Part shown: positions 1 through 8,977 of the stretch, one piece after another
How positions within the stretch are numbered: the stretch's first letter is position 1
How the letters are laid out: each line of letters opens with the position of its first letter
Source: Oscillospiraceae bacterium
GTDB taxonomy: Bacteria; Bacillota; Clostridia; Oscillospirales; Ruminococcaceae
DNA length: 38,164 nt
NCBI GenBank assembly: GCA_017399765.1
Contig: JAFQBH010000019.1
Span: 1-38,164 of the forward strand
Direction of reading: 5' to 3'
Notes under the pieces: model-generated
Database searches by the model: none
What the model saw: the letters and a program-made list of their open reading frames with translations, nothing else
Told to the model about the DNA's origin: nothing
Made by a program: the position numbers and the translations under genes

Positions 1-351
1 AATGGTGATGTTTTCGCCTCTTGCGGCGGAATGAACGGTTTCGCACATACCGATGGAAGCAAGGTCACCGTCGCCCTGGTAAGTGAATACGATTTTGCTG
101 GGGTCGGAACGTTTAACGCCGGTTGCAACAGCCGGAGCTCTTCCGTGTGCGGCTTCGACCATATCAACGGTGAAGTAATCGTAAGCCATAACGGAACAGC
201 CAACGGGAGCAATACCGATGGTTCTGCCTTCAATTCCAAGTTCGTCAATAACTTCCGCAACAAGGCGGTGAACAATTCCGTGGGTGCAGCCGGGGCAATA
301 ATGAAGAACGGCATCGGTGAGTGCCTTCGGTTTTTCAAAAACAACTGCCAT
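1..351 (-). CDS. vorA: 2-oxoacid:ferredoxin oxidoreductase, beta (TPP-binding) subunit, partial
   Basis: This is the N-terminal 117 codons of the thiamine-pyrophosphate subunit of a VOR/KOR-type enzyme; the rest lies beyond the left edge. The cysteine motif HYCPGCTHG is near residue 17-25, followed by GIAPVGCSV and the TPP/Mg motif start [11 protein letters not shown], then AARGENITI at the edge. The family decarboxylates 2-oxoacids to acyl-CoA, passing electrons to ferredoxin, and can run in reverse. The ATG at 349-351 follows the vorB stop by two bases and has a GGAGAGG ribosome site inside the vorB 3' end, so the two are coupled. Substrate (branched-chain versus 2-oxoglutarate) cannot be settled from sequence alone; the neighbours favour branched-chain 2-oxoacids. 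Confidence 0.9.
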
Positions 352-353
352 GA

Positions 354-1418
354 TTATTCCTCTCCTTTCTCTGCTTCTTTAATGGAAGCAAGAATATCGT
401 CAACGGTAGTTATCATGCCGCCGACTCTGGTGCAGCCGTAAACGGGCTTTTTGCAGCGGATAGCAAGTTCGATATCCTCTTTCATCTGTCCCATGTTAAG
501 TTCAACGGATATGAAGGATTTTACTTTGTCCGCAGCGACAAGAAGGGGCTTTTTCGGGAAGGGCCAAAGTGTAATGGGTCTTATCATACCGACTTTGATG
601 CCCTGTTTTCTGGCTTCAAGAATTGCGTTTCTGGAAACACGGGCGGTGATTCCGCAGGAAACAATGCAGATTTCCGCATCTTCCATCATGAATTCTTCCC
701 AAAGGCATTCCTCTTCTTCGATTTTCTTATATCTTTCGTAACGCTCAAGGTTGATATCTTCAAGCTTTTTCGGAGAAAGATAAAGGGAGTTTACAATGTG
801 GTGTTCGCGTTTGCATTCGGTACCGGTAACGGCCCAGTCCTTGGGGGTGTTATCGATTTCAACAGGGTCCGGAAGAACAACGGGTTCCATCATCTGCCCC
901 ATGGTGCCGTCTGCAAGAAGCATGCAGGGCATGCGGTATTTATCGGCAAGTTCAAAACCTTTAAGGGTCATATCAGCCATTTCCTGAACGGAAGCCGGAG
1001 CAAGAACGATTACGTGAAAGTCGCCGTGGCCGGGTCCGCGGGTTGCAAGGAAATAGTCGGACTGGGAAGGCTGGATTCCGCCAAGACCGGGACCGCCGCG
1101 CTGTACGTTAACGATAAGAGCGGGAAGGTCGGAACCGGCAAGATAGGAAATTCCTTCACATTTAAGAGCAATACCCGGGCTGGAGGAAGAGGTCATTGCG
1201 CGTTTTCCGGTTGCGGCAACGCCATAGACCATGTTGATTGCGGCGATTTCGCTTTCCGCCTGAAGGAAAACTCCGCCGATTTTCGGCATTTTTTTGGACA
1301 TATATGCCGCAACTTCGGTCTGGGGAGTGATAGGATATCCGAAATAATGGCGGCATCCGGCAAGGATAGCCGCTTCCGCAAGGGCTTCGTTGCCCTTCAT
1401 AAGAACTTTTTCCTGCAT
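354..1418 (-). CDS. vorB: 2-oxoacid:ferredoxin oxidoreductase, alpha subunit
   Basis: A 354-residue alpha subunit of the VOR/KOR family, close to the usual length. The pyrimidine-binding domain is seen in the N-terminal half ([16 protein letters not shown], then [24 protein letters not shown] and QRGGPGLGG), followed by the transketolase C-terminal-like domain (residues about 250-350). The start at 1418 is chosen over an in-frame one 24 bases upstream because GGAGG sits seven bases before it. It lies 13 bases after the ferredoxin gene and directly before the beta subunit, giving the D-B-A order typical of VOR operons. The gamma subunit is expected beyond the left edge. 2-Ketoisovalerate is the preferred substrate guess from the T-box context; 2-oxoglutarate remains possible. 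Confidence 0.9.
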
Positions 1419-1431
1419 ATTTCCGCCTCCT

Positions 1432-1638
1432 TTATTTTTCAACAGTGATTACGCAGTCCGGGCACATTGTTGCACAGAAAGCGCATCCGATGCATTTTTC
1501 GGGTTCAGTGATCTCAACGGGAGAATGACCTTTTTGGTTAAGTCTTTCTCTCGAAAGCTGGAGAAGATTTTTCGGGCAGGCATTTACGCAAAGACCGCAG
1601 CCCTTGCAAAGTTCTTCTTTAAAAGTAAGTTTTGCCAA
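1432..1638 (-). CDS. vorD: 4Fe-4S ferredoxin subunit of the oxidoreductase (VorD/KorD-like)
   Basis: A 68-residue protein with two CxxCxxCxxxCP clusters: [12 protein letters not shown] near residues 11-22 and [12 protein letters not shown] near 49-60. This is the two-[4Fe-4S] delta subunit that carries electrons between the catalytic subunits and external ferredoxin. Size and position immediately before vorB fit four-subunit VOR/KOR enzymes. A good ribosome site (GGAGG) precedes the ATG at 1636-1638, which lies 18 bases after the stop of the P-loop NTPase, so all four genes are probably one transcript. Confidence 0.9.
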
Positions 1639-1656
1639 AATCGTTGCACCTCCGTT

Positions 1657-2331
1657 TTATTTGTTAAGATGATAATATAGTTTCTGAAGCGAAAGGGGAA
1701 AAAGGTTTTCCACCTTATTTTTCAGTTCTTCATAAATTTTTTCGTCACAGCAGGTCATTTTTACCGGAATTCCGAGAGCTTTTGAAACATCTTCGGCATA
1801 AGCCATGCTGGAAAGAACATCTTCCGCGGTTGTTTCCGGACCGAGGTTTGTGTTGTTGACAATTCCGGTGAAAGGAAGCTTGCATGCAGCAACCATTTCT
1901 TCAACAACTTCAAGAGTATCCGGAACGGTTCTTGTGAGCGGACGGGCTTTGTTGACAACAAGAAGCATCTCGTAATCGTTTTCCTCGATTATCGAAGGAA
2001 CGTATCTTCCGAGAGCAAGTGCGCCGCGGTCATCGCCGCCGATATCAAGAACGCCGTATTCGCTTCGGCTGTCGATAAGTTCATAAACTTCCTTCGGCAT
2101 TGCCGGAGCATCAACGTTGCTGTTGGCGAACTTTGAGCATATAAGTTTTATTCCGTGCTCACGGAAAACTTCTTCGCTGTCAAGGGTGCGGAAATATGGG
2201 TTTACGATATCGAGATCCGCAACCGTTACCGGAAATCCGTGCTCACGTAGAAGCAAGGCATAGTTTACGGCGATATTGGTTTTTCCGCTTCCGTAATGGC
2301 CGGCAAAAAGCGTAAGTCTTTTGAATTCCAG
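1657..2331 (-). CDS. ParA/CbiA-like P-loop NTPase of the VOR operon, apparent CTG start
   Basis: A 224-residue P-loop protein. The Walker A motif GHYGSGKTN is near residues 11-19 and an Asp-rich DIGGDDRGA segment is mid-protein, as in the SIMIBI (MinD/CbiA) class. No ATG, GTG or TTG lies in frame before the Walker A motif. An in-frame TGA stands two codons upstream of a CTG at 2329-2331, and a perfect GGAGGTGA ribosome site ends a few bases before that CTG, so I take CTG as the start. The first TTG (2256) would delete the nucleotide-binding loop. Its place ahead of ferredoxin and vorB suggests a maturation, partner or regulatory role, but the function is unknown. A sequencing error at the 5' end is the main alternative. 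Confidence 0.75.
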   Translation of the reverse strand: MEFKRLTLFAGHYGSGKTNIAVNYALLLREHGFPVTVADLDIVNPYFRTLDSEEVFREHGIKLICSKFANSNVDAPAMPKEVYELIDSRSEYGVLDIGGDDRGALALGRYVPSIIEENDYEMLLVVNKARPLTRTVPDTLEVVEEMVAACKLPFTGIVNNTNLGPETTAEDVLSSMAYAEDVSKALGIPVKMTCCDEKIYEELKNKVENLFPLSLQKLYYHLNK

Positions 2332-2358
2332 AGGAAATCACCTCCGTTTTAGTAATTT

Positions 2359-2500
2359 AGCCTTCCCAGAGGGGAAGGTGGCACTTGCGAAGCAAATGAC
2401 GGATGAGGGATTATCAGGTAACGCGGAGCGTTCATAGTAATTTATCAGGGATATCCCTCCTCAGTCACCTTCGGTGACAGCTCCTCCTCCGAGGAGCCGG
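2359..2500. repeat. MITE-like intergenic repeat, copy 1 (full)
   Basis: A noncoding block of about 142 bases with a left arm containing CCTTCCCAGAGGGGAAGG, a middle GACGGATGAGGGATTA, and a right part with the hairpin TCACCTTCGGTGA followed by GAGGAGCC. Ends and interior can fold into a large imperfect palindrome. The left 54 bases recur with about two differences at 5184. Such palindromic elements are scattered in many clostridial genomes. It sits between the 3' end of the first synthetase gene and the NTPase gene, where it could act as a transcript-processing or attenuating structure. Confidence 0.75.
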
Positions 2501-2508
2501 AAAAAATA

Positions 2509-4791
2509 TCAAAGTTTGCTTCTTATAATCTTTCCGCTGGTCGTTTTCGGAAGTTCGGTGCGGAACTCAACGATTCTCGGATATTTATAAGGAGCTGTAT
2601 GGGTTTTAACGTAATTCTGAATTTCCTTTTTAAGTTCATCGGTGGGTTCCATGCCTTTGGTAAGGACTATGCAGGCTTTTACAACCTGTCCGCGAACTTC
2701 GTCCGGAGCCGCGCAAACGCCGCATTCCAGAACATAGGGAAGTTCCATGATGACGTTTTCGATTTCAAACGGTCCGATTCTGTAACCGGAAGATTTGATA
2801 AGGTCGTCGGCTCTTCCGACGTACCAGAAAAATCCGTCCTCGTCTTTCCATGCAAGGTCGCCGGTGTGATAAAATCCGTCGCGCCAGGTTTCTGCGGTTT
2901 TTTCGGGACTTGCATAATACTGATAGCTGAGTCCGCAGGGAAGACCTTTGCTGATATTGATGCAGATCTCGCCGGTGTCACCTGCGGCAACTTCGTTTCC
3001 GTCCGCATCAAGAAGATGAACATCATAAAGGGGAGAAGGTTTTCCCATGGAACCGATCTTGTGGCTTCCGCCGGAAAGGTTGCCGATGATAAGGGTGGAT
3101 TCGCTCTGTCCGAAACCTTCCATAATCTGAAGTCCGGTTGCGTTTTCAAACTGGCGGAAAACTTCCGGGTTAAGCGCTTCGCCGGCGATTGAAGCATGCT
3201 TGATTGAGGAAAGGTCAAATCGGCTCAGGTCCTGTTTGATAAGCATACGGTACATGGTAGGCGGTGCGCAGAAAGTGGTGATATGGTATTTTGCGAACAT
3301 CGGAAGGATTTTTTCGGCATCAAAGCGGTCGAAGTCATAGACAAAAATCGGAGCTTCGCAAAGCCATTGACCGTAAAGTTTTCCCCAAAGGGATTTTGCC
3401 CAGCCGGTGTCGGAAATTGTAAGATGAAGTCCTTCCGGATCAACGCAGTGCCAATATTTTGCGGTGATGAAATGTCCGAGAGGATATTTATAATTGTGTG
3501 CGGCAATCTTCGGATAACCGGAAGTTCCGGAAGTGAAGAACATGAGCATCGGGTCGTTTCCGCAGGCGGTTTCTTCGTTTCTGCGGAAGGAACTCGAGAA
3601 CATGGTGTAATCTTCATTGAAGTTGAACCAACCTTCGCGGCTTCCGTTAACTATGATTTTAGTTGTAAGGGAAGGGCTGTTGGCTGCGGCTTTGTCAACA
3701 GCATCTGCGGTTTCGCCGTCTGCGGTGCAGATGATCGCACTGATTCCGGCGGAATTGAAACGATATTCAAAATCGTGCTCAAGAAGCTGGTTCGTTGCGG
3801 GAATTGCAATTGCACCGATTTTGTGGAGCGCAAGAATTGCAAACCAGAACTGGTAATGGCGTTTGAGAACGAGCATAACTCTGTCGCCCTTTTTGATTCC
3901 GAGGGATTTGAAATAGTTTGCCGCTCTGCCGGATTCCTTTTTTATATCACGGAAAGTAAAACGGCGTTCGGTTCCGTCATTGGAAATATGGAGCATTGCG
4001 AGCTTATCCGGCTGTTCTCTTCCAAGGGCATCAACAACGTCATAGGCAAAGTTGAAGTTTTCTTCGTTTCTGAAAGAAATTTTGGTGCAAAGACCGTTTT
4101 TGTCTTTTTCAGTGGTGATAAATTTGTTATAAACACGCTCGGTATCGTCGGAACGATGGGGTGCGTTGGGAAGAATCGCGGCTTTGTGGGTGGAAGTTTC
4201 CTTCTGCGGAGTAAGAACTATCGCATAGAAAATGCAGTCCGCACCACCGACAGCGACCATTCCGTGAGGAGTGGAGCTGTCGAAATAAATGCAGTCGCCT
4301 TTGTTGAGGGTTTCGGTATGTTCGCCAATCTGGATTTTAAGGCTTCCTTCGATGATAAGGTCGAATTCCTGGCCTTCATGGGAAGTGAGGGCAATGGGGC
4401 TGTGCTCGGCTTCTTCGCTGTATTTATTTACAACAAAAAGCGGTTCGGAAATCCTGTTGCGGAAGTCGGAAGCCATGTTGTAATAAATCATTCCGTGAGC
4501 CTGTTCAATTTTCTGACCCTGTCCGGCTCTTGTAACGGTATATCCGCGAAGCTTGGGGCTCTGGCCTTCGATAATATCGGTGATATCGACGCCAAGGCTT
4601 AAAGAACAGCGGTAAAGGAAAGCAAAGTTGAGGTCGCGCTGGCCGGATTCACATTCAATATATTCTTCTTCGGAAACGCCGGTTCTCTGCGCCATTTCTG
4701 CGGTGGAAAGTCCGGTTATTTCGCGAAGAGCGCGGATACGTTCCGCCATCTCCTGAATCTTATATTCAAGTCCCGTAAGCTGTTTTTCCAT
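2509..4791 (-). CDS. XRE-cupin-acyl-CoA synthetase fusion (copy 1)
   Basis: A 760-residue fusion protein. Residues about 15-75 are an XRE helix-turn-helix, 118-193 a cupin (HEGQEFDLIIEGSL, then GDCIYFDSSTPHG), and 245-760 an AMP-forming acyl-CoA synthetase of the medium-chain type. The ATP loop is FFTSGTSGYPK near 418-428. Later motifs are EGFGQSES, YHTGDLAW and VGRADDLIKSSGYR, and the adenylation lysine lies in LPKTTSGKI near 754. All catalytic motifs are intact, so it should activate a carboxylic acid with ATP and CoA. The ATG has GGAGG nine bases upstream and follows a T-box leader. XRE-cupin is a known regulator architecture, so the protein may also bind DNA and sense its substrate; that is inference. 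It is a paralogue of the gene at 5293-7554. Confidence 0.9.
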   Translation of the reverse strand: MEKQLTGLEYKIQEMAERIRALREITGLSTAEMAQRTGVSEEEYIECESGQRDLNFAFLYRCSLSLGVDITDIIEGQSPKLRGYTVTRAGQGQKIEQAHGMIYYNMASDFRNRISEPLFVVNKYSEEAEHSPIALTSHEGQEFDLIIEGSLKIQIGEHTETLNKGDCIYFDSSTPHGMVAVGGADCIFYAIVLTPQKETSTHKAAILPNAPHRSDDTERVYNKFITTEKDKNGLCTKISFRNEENFNFAYDVVDALGREQPDKLAMLHISNDGTERRFTFRDIKKESGRAANYFKSLGIKKGDRVMLVLKRHYQFWFAILALHKIGAIAIPATNQLLEHDFEYRFNSAGISAIICTADGETADAVDKAAANSPSLTTKIIVNGSREGWFNFNEDYTMFSSSFRRNEETACGNDPMLMFFTSGTSGYPKIAAHNYKYPLGHFITAKYWHCVDPEGLHLTISDTGWAKSLWGKLYGQWLCEAPIFVYDFDRFDAEKILPMFAKYHITTFCAPPTMYRMLIKQDLSRFDLSSIKHASIAGEALNPEVFRQFENATGLQIMEGFGQSESTLIIGNLSGGSHKIGSMGKPSPLYDVHLLDADGNEVAAGDTGEICINISKGLPCGLSYQYYASPEKTAETWRDGFYHTGDLAWKDEDGFFWYVGRADDLIKSSGYRIGPFEIENVIMELPYVLECGVCAAPDEVRGQVVKACIVLTKGMEPTDELKKEIQNYVKTHTAPYKYPRIVEFRTELPKTTSGKIIRSKL

Positions 4792-4823
4792 ACTGTTTTT
4801 CCTCCGTTCCTTTTGGGAAGAAA

Positions 4824-5108
4824 CAAAAAAGCCCGTCCCAAAGAAATGATTCTTTGAGACGAGCTGTTTAAAAAAAACATACCCGCGGTACCACTCAAAT
4901 TGCGTTTGCTATTGCAAAACACCGCTCATCGGGTTCAAACAAACCCTAAGCACTTACGCAGCTGACGCGGAAGAGTTCTACTTGCGAAAAACGCTTTCTT
5001 CTCTTCGGCTCGGGAGCTACAGCAAAAAACACCCGTCATCGGCTTTTCATCAGCCGCCGACTCTCTTGAGGCAGGAAACGTTTTCCGCACTCTCCGTCAA
5101 AGCCTTTA
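4824..5108 (-). promoter_or_regulatory. T-box riboswitch leader of synthetase copy 1, probable Val specifier
   Basis: On the minus strand the leader has Stem I (K-turn near 5098, AGAGAG element near 5060), the conserved antiterminator box GAGTGGTACCGCGG (4883-4896), and an intrinsic terminator (hairpin 4830-4864, T run 4824-4829) ahead of the ribosome site. With the lower helix GGAG/CTCC, the codon one base before the helix is GTA (5020-5018), a Val specifier. The alternative Cys reading (TGT) conflicts with the variable base of the TGGT bulge, which calls for a tRNA with A73. Uncharged tRNA should promote read-through, so expression should rise when the amino acid is scarce. T-box identity is certain; the specifier is tentative. 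Confidence 0.88.
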
Positions 5109-5119
5109 TATTAAAAAGA

Positions 5120-5148
5120 ATCATATCACTTGATTATTTAATTGTCAA
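5120..5148 (-). promoter_or_regulatory. sigma-A type promoter of synthetase copy 1
   Basis: The minus strand reads TTGACA (5148-5143), a 17-base spacer, then TATGAT (5125-5120). Transcription would begin near 5112, just ahead of Stem I of the T-box. Confidence 0.85.
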
Positions 5149-5183
5149 GCTAAATTCAAAATTTTGAATAAATATTCCGATCA

Positions 5184-5290
5184 AGCCTTCCCGGAGGGGA
5201 AGGTGGCATTTGCGAAGCAAATGACGGATGAGGGATTACAAAAGAACACGGAGCGTTTAATCAGGTATATCCTTCTTCAAAGGCACCTTA
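5184..5290. repeat. MITE-like intergenic repeat, copy 2 (right part degenerate)
   Basis: The first 54 bases match copy 1 at 2359 almost exactly, including CCTTCCCGGAGGGGAAGG and GACGGATGAGGGATTA. The right half has decayed: the TCACCTTCGGTGA hairpin and GAGGAGCC end are missing. As with copy 1, it begins a few bases past the 3' end of a synthetase gene, suggesting that element and gene were duplicated together. Confidence 0.7.
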
Positions 5291-5292
5291 AA

Positions 5293-7554
5293 TCAAAGCT
5301 TGTTTCTCTGAATTTTTCCGCTTATAGTTTTCGGAAGTTCTTCGCGGAATTCAACAATTCTCGGATATTTATAAGGAGCCGTATGGGTTTTAACGTAATC
5401 CTGGATCTCTTTCTTGAGTTCGTCGGTGCCCTCAACACCCTTAACAAGAACGATGCAGGCTTTTACAACCTGTCCGCGAACTTCGTCCGGCGCGGCGCAA
5501 ACTCCGCATTCAAGAACATAGGGGAGCTCCATAATAACGTTTTCGATTTCGAACGGTCCGATGCGGTAACCGGAAGACTTGATGACGTCGTCCGCTCTGC
5601 CGACATACCAGAAATAACCATCCTCATCACGCCAGGCAACGTCGCCGGTGTGGTACATTCCGTCGTGCCATGCGGCGTCGGTTTTTTCCTGGTCTTTGTG
5701 ATAACCGAGGAAAAGTCCGCAGGGAACGGATTCGTCGGTCCTTACGACGATTTCGCCGTTTTCACCGGTGGGAACGGAATTTCCTTCGCTGTCAACAATA
5801 TCGATATTATAACCGGGGGTCGGTCTTCCCATGGAACCGGGTTTGAGAAGTCCGCCGGTAAGGTTAGCGAGGGTAAGGGTGGTTTCGGTCTGGCCGAAAC
5901 CTTCCGCAATGCGAAGTCCGGTTGCTTTTTCAAACTGATAGAAAACTTCCGGGTTAAGGGCTTCGCCGGCGGTGGTTGCATGCTCAATGGAGGAAAGGTC
6001 ATATTTGGAAAGATCCTGCTTTATGAGCATGCGGTACATGGTAGGCGGTGCGCAGAAGGTGGTGATATGATATTTCGCGAACATCGGAAGAATCTTCGAA
6101 GCATCAAATCTGTCAAAGTCATAGGTAAAGACTGCGCTTTCGCAGAGCCATTGGCCGTAAAGTTTTCCCCAAAGAGCTTTTCCCCAGCCGGTATCGGAAA
6201 TTGTGAAATGAAGTCCGTCACGGCGTACCCAGTGCCAGTATTTCGCGGTGACATAATGACCGAGAACATATTTATAGCTGTGGGTCGCAATTTTGGGATA
6301 TCCGGTGGTTCCGGAAGTGAAGAACATAAGCATGGGGTCATCGCCGCAGGGAGTATCTTCGTTTCTGTGAAGGCGGCGGCTGAAAAGCTCATATTCGCCG
6401 CGGAAATCGTGCCAGCCTTCTCTCGGTTCGCCAACGATGATTTTTGTGATAGGTTTATCGTAATTTTCCGCCGCAAGTTCAGCCTGATGCGCAGCATCAC
6501 CGACAGAAGTGCAGACGATTGCTTTTACGTCCGCCGCTTTATAGCGATATTCAAAGTCGTGCTGAAGAAGCTGATCCGTTGCGGGAATTGCGATCGCGCC
6601 GATTTTGTGAAGACCGAGGATAGCAAACCAGAATTCGGCGTGGCGCTTGAGAACAAGCATAACTGTATCGCCTTTTTTGATTCCGAGGGAAGTGAAATAG
6701 TTTGCCGCCTGGGCGGAACGTTCCTTCATATCACGGAAAGTGTAGATATTTTCGGTAAGGTCGTTGGAAACATGGACCATTGCAACTTTGTCCGGCTGCT
6801 GGCGGCCGAGTTCGTCAACAATATCAAATGCAAAGTTGAACTGGTCGGTATTGGAAAAATGAAGTTTTACCGGATAACCGTTTTCGTCGGTGTCTGCTTT
6901 TACAAAAGAGTTGCTGATAAGATCGTTTTCGTGGGTCGGCTTTTTAGGAATGATATAATCAGCTTTTTCCGGTTTTTTGTCCGCCATTACCATTGCAAGG
7001 AAGGTGCAGTCGCTTCCGCCGACGGCAATCATTCCGTGAGGAGTGGAGGATTTATAGAAAATGGAGTCGCCCTCATTAAGAATTTCGGTATGGTCGCCAA
7101 CCTGAACTTTGAGAGAACCTTTTATGACAAGGTCGAATTCCTGTCCGGCGTGGGTTGCGGTATGAATGGGCTTGTCCTGAAGTTCTTCGGAAAATTTATA
7201 AGTTACCCAATAAGGCGCACCGAGTTTTCTCTGAAACATCGGAGCAAGGTTCTGAATGCAGATTCCGTCCTCTTCAGCGGTAACAAGACCTTCGCCTTTT
7301 CTGGTTACGGTATAATGAGAAAGATTGGAAGCATGTCCTTCAAGAAGTTCGGTAAGTTCAAGACCGAACGCAAGGGAGCATTTATGAAGAAAAGAGAAGG
7401 GGAGATCGACTTTTCCGCTCTCATAAATTCGATATTGTTCCTCCGAAACTTCGGTGCGTTCCGCAAGCTGTGCAGGAGAAAATCCCACAATCTCACGCAT
7501 CTCACGAATTCGCTGGGCAATCTCCATAAGAGAGGTTTCTGTCTGTTTTTTCAT
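5293..7554 (-). CDS. XRE-cupin-acyl-CoA synthetase fusion (copy 2)
   Basis: A 753-residue paralogue of the protein at 2509-4791 with the same order: XRE helix-turn-helix (about 8-68), cupin (HAGQEFDLVIKGSL, then GDSIFYKSSTPHG, about 110-186) and AMP-forming acyl-CoA synthetase. The ATP loop is FFTSGTTGYPK, followed by EGFGQTET, YHTGDVAW and VGRADDVIKSSGYR, with the C-terminal lysine in LPKTISGKI. The open frame continues upstream through the T-box antiterminator, but the ATG at 7552-7554 is the sensible start: it lies after the terminator, with AAAGGA about 12 bases upstream. The C-terminal 80 residues are nearly identical to copy 1, while the XRE-cupin part has diverged more, so the copies may activate different acids. 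Confidence 0.9.
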   Translation of the reverse strand: MKKQTETSLMEIAQRIREMREIVGFSPAQLAERTEVSEEQYRIYESGKVDLPFSFLHKCSLAFGLELTELLEGHASNLSHYTVTRKGEGLVTAEEDGICIQNLAPMFQRKLGAPYWVTYKFSEELQDKPIHTATHAGQEFDLVIKGSLKVQVGDHTEILNEGDSIFYKSSTPHGMIAVGGSDCTFLAMVMADKKPEKADYIIPKKPTHENDLISNSFVKADTDENGYPVKLHFSNTDQFNFAFDIVDELGRQQPDKVAMVHVSNDLTENIYTFRDMKERSAQAANYFTSLGIKKGDTVMLVLKRHAEFWFAILGLHKIGAIAIPATDQLLQHDFEYRYKAADVKAIVCTSVGDAAHQAELAAENYDKPITKIIVGEPREGWHDFRGEYELFSRRLHRNEDTPCGDDPMLMFFTSGTTGYPKIATHSYKYVLGHYVTAKYWHWVRRDGLHFTISDTGWGKALWGKLYGQWLCESAVFTYDFDRFDASKILPMFAKYHITTFCAPPTMYRMLIKQDLSKYDLSSIEHATTAGEALNPEVFYQFEKATGLRIAEGFGQTETTLTLANLTGGLLKPGSMGRPTPGYNIDIVDSEGNSVPTGENGEIVVRTDESVPCGLFLGYHKDQEKTDAAWHDGMYHTGDVAWRDEDGYFWYVGRADDVIKSSGYRIGPFEIENVIMELPYVLECGVCAAPDEVRGQVVKACIVLVKGVEGTDELKKEIQDYVKTHTAPYKYPRIVEFREELPKTISGKIQRNKL

Positions 7555-7601
7555 AAGATCCAATATCCTTTCCGACCGCATAAAGGGTCTTTTTTTATAA
7601 A

Positions 7602-7866
7602 ATAAAAACCCGTCCCAAGAATAAAATCTTGAGACGGGTAAAAAAATCTTTTTATCCGCGGTACCACTCAAATTGCAGTAATACTGCCGCCTTCAGGCTC
7701 CAACAAGCCCTATTCCTTAACGCGGACAAACGGGGAACATCTACTGGGAAAAAACCTTTCGGGTTCCCGGCTCAGAAGGGATAAGTCCTTGGTTCGGAAA
7801 CTGCCGGTTTACACCAACCACCGGCTCTCTGCGCGTTTTCCGTTCCGACCGTCTTCGTCAACGCCT
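7602..7866 (-). promoter_or_regulatory. T-box riboswitch leader of synthetase copy 2, probable Leu (or Ile) specifier
   Basis: The minus strand shows a Stem I with K-turn TGACGAAG paired to CTTCTGA, the AGAGAGCCGG distal element, the antiterminator box GAGTGGTACCGCGG (7657-7670) and a terminator (hairpin 7608-7639, T run). In the specifier loop the purine run AGGA is followed by CTT (7785-7783) and A, matching the purine-codon-A layout of well-studied T-boxes and reading Leu. ATC (Ile) three bases later is the alternative. The TGGT bulge again predicts a tRNA with A73, which Leu and Ile tRNAs have. Confidence 0.88.
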
Positions 7867-7883
7867 TTTACAATATAGGAATT

Positions 7884-7912
7884 ACTTTAGCACTTTAATT
7901 AAATATTGTCAA
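7884..7912 (-). promoter_or_regulatory. sigma-A type promoter of synthetase copy 2
   Basis: The minus strand has TTGACA (7912-7907), a 17-base spacer and TAAAGT (7889-7884). The T-box Stem I begins within about 20 bases downstream. Confidence 0.8.
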
Positions 7913-7945: not shown

Positions 7946-8881
7946 TTACTGAAGCCTTGTGATAACAAGATGGGCGGAAACGGGTTCGATTCCGCCGGCG
8001 GAAGGAGTAATTGTAAGAGCGGTGGCGGTTCCTTCCGGGTTGCGAACGGTGAGAACGGAGTTCGCAATGTTGTTTTCAACAAGCGCCATTCCGATAATCT
8101 GGGAAGTTCCGGTTGCTCTTCCGGTAACGGTATAAGGAAGTTCGGTTCCGTTAAGAGTAAGAACAAGCTGACCCGCTTCGGTAACGCTTACCTGGAAAAA
8201 CACCTGGTAAACGCCGACTTCGGAAAGGAAAAAAGAAGAATCGGAAGCTCTTGAAATTCCGGTTCCGCCAATAGCGGTTTCCGAAGGGAAGGAAATATCT
8301 TCTCCGGCACCGATTGTTGCGGTATTATCCGGAGGCATGAGAGCATAAAAATCGGCAAAGCCAAGAACAGTTCCGGCGGGTCCCTGTGGTCCGGTCGGAC
8401 CGATAGGACCCTGAGGCCCGGTTGCACCGGTTGCACCAGTGGCGCCGGTTGCTCCCGCAGGACCGGTAAGACCTTGCGGACCGGCAGGTCCGGTCAAACC
8501 AACGGGACCCTGAGGACCTTGTTCGCCTGCAGGACCCTGAGGACCCGCAGGTCCGGTTAATCCGATAGGTCCCTGAGGACCGGCAGGACCTGTAAGACCA
8601 ATGGGTCCCTTAGGGCCCTGTTCACCGGCAGGACCCTGGGGACCCGCCGGACCAACCGGTCCCTGAAGACCGGCAATTCCCTGAGGGCCTTCCGGACCTA
8701 CCGCACCGGGAATACCCTGGGGTCCTCTCGGACCGATTTGTCCCTGGGGACCCGGAACGGGATAGGATTCACCGGTATTGCAGCAGCATCCTACCGGATA
8801 AGGCTGGGGATATGGGCGATAGCGGTTGAAACCGCATTGGAAATCAAAAGATTGATTTTCTGAACAATTATATCTGTTCAA
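7946..8881 (-). CDS. Collagen-like surface/exosporium protein (BclA-like)
   Basis: About 311 residues. A Cys/Pro/Tyr-rich N-terminus (residues 1-44, with VGCCCN) precedes about 42 unbroken Gly-X-Y triplets (GPQ, GPA, GLT, four GAT in a row), then a C-terminal beta-rich trimerisation-type domain starting [14 protein letters not shown], as in BclA-like proteins. There is no classical signal peptide, as is usual for exosporium collagens. Two consecutive TTG codons can start the frame (8884 and 8881); the second is seven bases from GGAGG and is preferred. The protein is expected to form a collagen triple helix on the spore or cell surface. The gene stands alone between oppositely oriented neighbours. 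Confidence 0.88.
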
Positions 8882-8977
8882 CAAAACACCTCCTTTTAAG
8901 GTATGCAGTCCATTCTATTCCGGAAAAAGAAAAATTGCCTTAAAAAGTGTTTTTGAACCACAAAATCAAAATTTCAA

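Follow-up and report, generated by a model that had tools for sequence, protein, structure and literature searches.

At the start of the window, the whole 38,164-nucleotide stretch of DNA that was analyzed (contig C17 of a 1.83 Mb Oscillospiraceae metagenome-assembled genome, 88% complete), the minus strand carries, in order, T-box 1, ACS_A, T-box 2, ACS_B, a P-loop gene, vorD, vorB and a partial vorA. A promoter-like site opens each of the two synthetase arms, TTGACA-17-TAAAGT at 7884-7912 for the isoleucine (Ile) arm and TTGACA-17-TATGAT at 5120-5148 for the valine (Val) arm, followed by a T-box leader (T-box 1, 7627-7870; T-box 2, 4852-5109) with its intrinsic terminator (7608-7639 and 4830-4865, respectively). 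These promoter-like sites and terminators are pattern matches that rank at the top of the two scan lists, in which the totals did not exceed those of shuffled sequences (5 versus 8.1 and 12 versus 12.4). ACS_A (753 aa, 5296-7554) and ACS_B (760 aa, 2512-4791) are 64% identical, and in both a helix-turn-helix (HTH) and cupin part is fused to an AMP-forming acyl-CoA synthetase (Pfam domains HTH_19, Cupin_2, AMP-binding and AMP-binding_C). Two repeat-like stretches that look alike by eye lie at 2349-2500 and 5183-5285, one after each synthetase gene, and the gap lengths after these genes vary among genus members. A collagen-repeat protein with a BclA_C-like end (7949-8884) adjoins the operon.

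Downstream of ACS_B, weak Pfam matches indicate a CbiA/ParA-like P-loop ATPase at 1657-2334, where the 5' limit is not a fixed start codon; the gene keeps this position, ahead of vorD, in almost every mapped operon. An earlier sequence-only reading had placed the two T-box synthetases directly ahead of VorD-VorB-VorA on one strand, which this gene between ACS_B and vorD corrects. The window then encodes a VorD-like 2x[4Fe-4S] delta subunit (1432-1641), a VorB alpha subunit (354-1418; POR_N and PFOR_II domains; NF005507 at 531.8 bits, cut-off 399) and, truncated where the contig ends, a TPP beta subunit of the VorA type (1-351). Contig C44 of the same genome opens with a piece repeating the last 59 residues of the window's vorA product, and runs on with the remaining vorA, vorC, ilvE, a LeuA-like gene and a TIM-barrel/synthetase fusion; in G014, a member of the same genus, the entire gene order lies on a single contig. 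The alpha, beta, gamma and delta subunits of Vor are thus all present, with beta split over two contigs. VorB exceeds its NCBIfam cut-off, while beta, delta and gamma have the Pfam domains and score under the NCBIfam cut-offs.

Both leaders match the Rfam T-box family RF00230, T-box 1 at 82.6 bits (E 1.2e-17) and T-box 2 at 79.9 bits (E 5.8e-17). The E-values are far from chance, but both scores lie under the gathering score of 93, so a default Rfam scan shows neither; among four relatives, six of 12 T-box matches pass the gathering score, including all three of one locus (L115; 117.1, 103.6 and 99 bits). The antiterminator of both leaders contains the T-box sequence GUGGUACCGCG with an intrinsic terminator downstream, and Stem I, with a specifier loop and covarying helices, is present as in members of RF00230. 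In an alignment of 39 Stem I sequences (A3), the specifier falls within a loop of 5 nt, and the bases that change belong to a covarying helix. On alignment A5, which was fitted to the Stem I model, 94.1% of cells are paired (at most 45.6% in slid versions) and 19 of 20 pairs have changed on both sides, with a covariation of 0.693 versus at most 0.171 when slid. The Stem I model R1 matched T-box 1 at 91.4 bits, also matched T-box 2, and gave 170 matches over 130 sources. T-boxes are switched on by starvation for an amino acid, and the two window leaders would be expected to act by tRNA-dependent antitermination.

We read the specifier of T-box 1 as Ile (AUC, 7782-7780) and that of T-box 2 as Val (GUA, 5020-5018), with both codon positions assigned by eye. 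The RF00230 search found 13 T-boxes in the source genome, and ten with a named gene behind them fit the expected codon by eye: leuS, tyrS, pheS, two trpB, cysE, metN, alaS, thrS and valS, where nine gene names are over the family cut-off and metN is below it. R1 matched six of the 11 T-boxes outside the window, with the correct loop triplet for leuS, valS, pheS and one trpB, and with gaps in the alignment of tyrS and L006. The valS T-box of this genome has the same specifier loop (GUA) as T-box 2. The base following AUC is C in the window and a purine in the genome's other T-boxes; across the 90 distinct AUC loops it is A in 50, C in 39 and G in one. In the same genome, two separate trpB genes (L004 and L009) each lie behind a Trp (UGG) T-box, and L006 (G000:C44:45761-46003), a T-box that by eye carries UUC (Phe), precedes an apparent ABC-transporter substrate-binding protein and permease.

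We found 162 copies of the synthetase fusion in 121 sources (duplicate contigs included), and 140 of them are preceded by a T-box motif at a distance of up to 700 nt. Among the 22 without such a motif are distant relatives (44-51% identity) as well as ACS_B copies lying directly after ACS_A behind one AUC T-box (L085-L092), so Val control is not universal. The 137 distinct T-box sequences comprise 90 with AUC, 43 with GUA, three with GUC and one misaligned. In the register table of distinct loops the ‘Ile’ and ‘Val’ groups are defined by the triplet itself, and the table tells only which of the neighboring registers are variable; counts in which the triplet was not imposed come from the BLAST classes and the tree. 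Sorted by best BLAST class, the fusions nearest ACS_A have AUC in every one of their 81 T-boxes, and the T-boxes of those nearest ACS_B (n = 58) read GUA in 43, GUC in three and AUC in 11, with one misaligned (L161, AUC by eye). These 12 AUC-reading cases are single fusions at 51-60% identity, none of them in the Val clade. A FastTree tree was built from 151 distinct fusions (92 Ile-read, 44 Val-read and 15 unassigned); in it, the 44 Val-read fusions form one clade (support 100) with seven unassigned and none of the Ile-read members, corresponding to a single change of specifier amino acid. Another genome of the genus, G011, is without the full fusion, and its HTH-cupin and synthetase parts match separate pieces (L078 and L079), with vor on another contig, which is possibly an unfused form.

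Several clues point to the acids that these enzymes activate. The nearest PDB chain to ACS_A is 3ETC (637 bits, the synthetase part alone being matched), the archaeal enzyme MacsMa of Methanosarcina acetivorans, which is described as preferring 2-methylbutyrate (PMC10455477). MbcS is the best NCBIfam model for both ACS_A and ACS_B, at 439 and 430 bits against a cut-off of 850; according to the account of the Staphylococcus aureus enzyme, it activates 2-methylbutyrate and isobutyrate and uses isovalerate poorly (PMC10026030). The cleanest difference within the synthetase domain is position 458, which is Gly in 99% of Ile-read enzymes and Ala throughout the Val clade (100%). This position is four residues before the one aligned with MacsMa Trp259 (numbering offset by hand), which the MacsMa authors call critical for substrate binding (PMC10455477), and MacsMa itself has Gly there. 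The alanine in the Val clade could make a smaller pocket for a smaller acid. From the domains and the tree, together with the nearest structure in the case of ACS_A, we predict that ACS_A is a 2-methylbutyryl-CoA synthetase and ACS_B an isobutyryl-CoA synthetase.

The remaining genes and the genomic background fit a synthetic role. The ilvE product on C44 scores well over two family cut-offs (TIGR01123, 412 versus 250; NF009897, 500 versus 307); the gene is part of the operon in the genus and, by eye, shares the locus in 29 of 43 vorA-bearing loci of L085-L163, some of the others ending early. A check for the standard pathway genes, proposed with the sequence-only reading, found neither ilvC nor ilvD in any of the 15 genus genomes searched; the source genome itself is 88% complete. 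Among 100 relatives, ilvD was over the cut-off in three of the 26 with a complete fusion (G033, G058 and G074) versus 46 of the 74 others, or 3/15 versus 43/65 when counted by genus (Fisher p 0.0027, with relatedness corrected to genus level only). It was also over the cut-off in seven of 50 further fusion genomes, hand-picked from the 80 behind the named loci; on hand-made lists with relatedness ignored, ilvD accompanied ACS_B in 2 of 37 versus 5 of 13 without it (p 0.009). The fusion does not adjoin vor in 11 of the 26 relatives; two of them (G071 and G084, 85-86% complete) gave no PF01063 aminotransferase match, and G088 gave no vorB over the cut-off. Three genus members (G001, G003 and G008) are without the fusion, a vorB over the cut-off, ilvE and the LeuA-like gene all together; lacking the whole set and ilvCD as well, they probably import the amino acids.

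We therefore propose, with considerable confidence, that this is a biosynthetic operon for acid activation, ferredoxin-driven carboxylation and transamination, in which each acid is called up by the tRNA of its own amino acid. Uncharged tRNA-Ile would bind T-box 1, the leader would antiterminate and ACS_A would be made, converting scavenged 2-methylbutyrate to its CoA ester; uncharged tRNA-Val on T-box 2 would likewise bring on ACS_B and the activation of isobutyrate. A shared ferredoxin-dependent VorABCD would carboxylate either acyl-CoA to the 2-oxo acid, which IlvE would transaminate to Ile or Val. This gut bacterium thus appears to make Ile and Val from scavenged short branched fatty acids and CO2. 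Vor and IlvE are reversible in principle. With the T-boxes, specifier register, gene order, protein families, missing ilvC and ilvD matches and the agreement of specifier with clade all read from the DNA, we infer flux towards the amino acids. The earlier preference for biosynthesis over degradation is thereby strengthened, by the Ile and Val specifiers, by ilvE in the operon, by the absence of ilvC and ilvD and by nearest enzymes that use 2-methylbutyrate or isobutyrate.

Run in the opposite direction, the same genes could serve a Stickland-like degradation, with Vor oxidizing the 2-oxo acids of Val, Ile and Leu to acyl-CoA and the synthetases working in reverse or salvaging acids. Vor enzymes are best known for the oxidative direction, and relatives that have ilvCD carry vorB-family genes too. 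Yet the T-boxes respond to amino-acid starvation, AMP-forming synthetases push acid towards acyl-CoA, the 15 genus genomes searched yielded no ilvC or ilvD, and the specifiers correspond to the products of the synthetic pathway, which makes degradation improbable. Marginally less probable again is that the acyl-CoAs serve as primers in making the branched-chain fatty acids of the membrane. This role is the one described for the S. aureus enzyme MbcS (PMC10026030), the top NCBIfam model here, though under its cut-off; it would leave no role for Vor, for ilvE in the operon or for a separate specifier per enzyme, and lipid demand is not tied to tRNA charging. MbcS presumably has neither the HTH-cupin part nor a T-box.

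It is very unlikely that T-box 1 reads Leu (CUU, as GGA-CUU-A) or, at register +1, Ser, even though CUU is present in the window and register +1 gives only synonymous Ser codons (UCA/UCC/UCG) in all 90 AUC loops: the CUU position lies in the covarying helix and varies in relatives (CCC, CUU, CCU, CAU and others) beside a constant AUC, and register +1 misreads the leuS, valS, pheS and trpB T-boxes of this genome and would erase the difference between the two T-boxes of L140 (CAUCC versus CGUCC). The Leu reading was rejected on these grounds. The sequence-only reading, which gave the specifiers as Val and Leu or Ile, thus already held the right answer for T-box 1; Val (GUA) and Ile (AUC) stand and Leu falls away.

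Under the proposed biosynthetic route, the acid and amino acid pairs are those long described for reductive carboxylation in the rumen, where isovalerate gives Leu, isobutyrate gives Val and 2-methylbutyrate gives Ile, as recounted in PMC7356843 with reference to Allison, Bryant, Robinson and Peel (1962-1971). In that account the route is known as labeling chemistry, whereas here we propose a set of genes in which each amino acid has its own synthetase and its own T-box. Compared with its relatives, ACS_A is nearest to MacsMa among solved structures (PMC10455477), comparable over the synthetase part alone, and MbcS is likewise an AMP-forming synthetase for 2-methylbutyrate and isobutyrate that serves membrane lipids (PMC10026030), unlike the role proposed here. 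The T-box leaders of ileS, valS, leuS and leuA belong to the same RNA family and answer to the same amino acids; unlike them, the window T-boxes would govern how acids are activated for one common carboxylating enzyme. The main text of two T-box catalogues (PMC2494555 and PMC3766115) does not contain ‘acyl-CoA’, ‘CoA ligase’ or ‘ferredoxin’, and none of the open-licence titles and abstracts searched links T-boxes with synthetases of this kind or with the carboxylation of branched acids. The chemistry is old and T-box control of amino-acid synthesis is known; within the literature searched, the gene set, the assignment of a separate T-box to each scavenged acid that enters a common reductive carboxylase, and a LeuA relative without the metal-ligand pair look new.

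That branched volatile fatty acids act as growth factors for rumen bacteria has been known since the 1960s, and the candidate genes now proposed assign an activating enzyme to each acid and suggest how the cell chooses among them. This offers a rule for annotation, that the T-box specifier names the acid, and predicts a need for isobutyrate, 2-methylbutyrate or isovalerate in particular uncultured gut bacteria. Genomes without ilvCD are not necessarily those of amino-acid auxotrophs.

Leu is probably made by the same scavenging and carboxylation route. The LeuA-like gene and the TIM-barrel/synthetase fusion, which lie downstream of ilvE here and have their own Leu T-box in many relatives, would form an arm that probably serves the conversion of isovalerate to leucine. 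Among L064 and L085-L163, 27 loci gave a hit to the LeuA-like gene; a T-box was matched ahead of it in 20 of these and in none of the other seven. The specifiers of the 20 are CUC in 14, CUG in five and CUG by eye in one (L090), and G074 and G082 add two more CUC T-boxes by eye. The LeuA-like gene behind a Leu T-box is mostly seen with the third synthetase, the order LeuA-like, TIM domain, third synthetase is constant where all are visible, and the arm is either continuous with ACS_A in a single run of genes or oriented divergently from it. For the Leu part of the earlier proposal, no T-box was found before the arm in the source genome, and relatives carry one that reads CUC or CUG. As to the classical Leu pathway, aconitase-family (PF00330) matches are absent from 13 of the 15 genus genomes, G011 and G014 having frames of 772 and 692 aa. 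Of 50 other genomes, nine contain frames the size of LeuC (409-468 aa, by eye), and a contig end of G113 holds a 358-aa piece. Genomes with the Leu arm do not lack LeuC significantly more often than the others (1/21 versus 8/29, p 0.061).

The LeuA-like proteins keep the HMGL and LeuA_dimer domains in all seven scanned. None of 31 LeuA-like ORFs has both histidines of the HxH metal-ligand pair when compared with 3ewb (L169 keeps one), and the proteins depart from true LeuA, which is recognized by these ligands and the LRDG motif of the catalytic domain. Having lost the histidine pair, they are not classed as isopropylmalate synthases; the C44 protein scores 258.6 against the TIGR00973 cut-off of 598.7. 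The C44 copy (G000:C44:2384-3796, L164) and those of 30 more loci are candidates for a pseudoenzyme that may sense leucine.

More tentatively, and with somewhat more doubt than belief, we suggest that the arms form a modular system in which the tRNA of each amino acid selects the scavenged acid to be activated for one shared carboxylase and transaminase. In such a system AUC would call for 2-methylbutyrate (Ile), GUA for isobutyrate (Val), CUC or CUG for isovalerate (Leu) and UUC for a phenylacetate-CoA ligase (Phe, in five order-level relatives and L154); an isopropylmalate synthase that has lost its catalysis and kept its leucine-binding domain would sense leucine for the third synthetase, and the Ile and Val synthetases would regulate themselves through their HTH-cupin parts. 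A PaaK-like gene behind a Phe T-box is possibly the phenylalanine arm of this logic. Its product is nearest to the phenylacetate-CoA ligase PaaK and below the cut-off (TIGR02155, 525.8 versus 646.3 bits). A T-box motif precedes it in five of 30 relatives' loci examined, which are the five most similar, and these five T-boxes exceed the RF00230 gathering score in a search run on 12 of the 30 loci. At L154 (12577-14230), a PaaK-like gene has an ACT-domain neighbor and a T-box in front. The five PaaK-linked T-boxes (L174-L178) and that of L154 all show GAA-UUC, which we take to read Phe.
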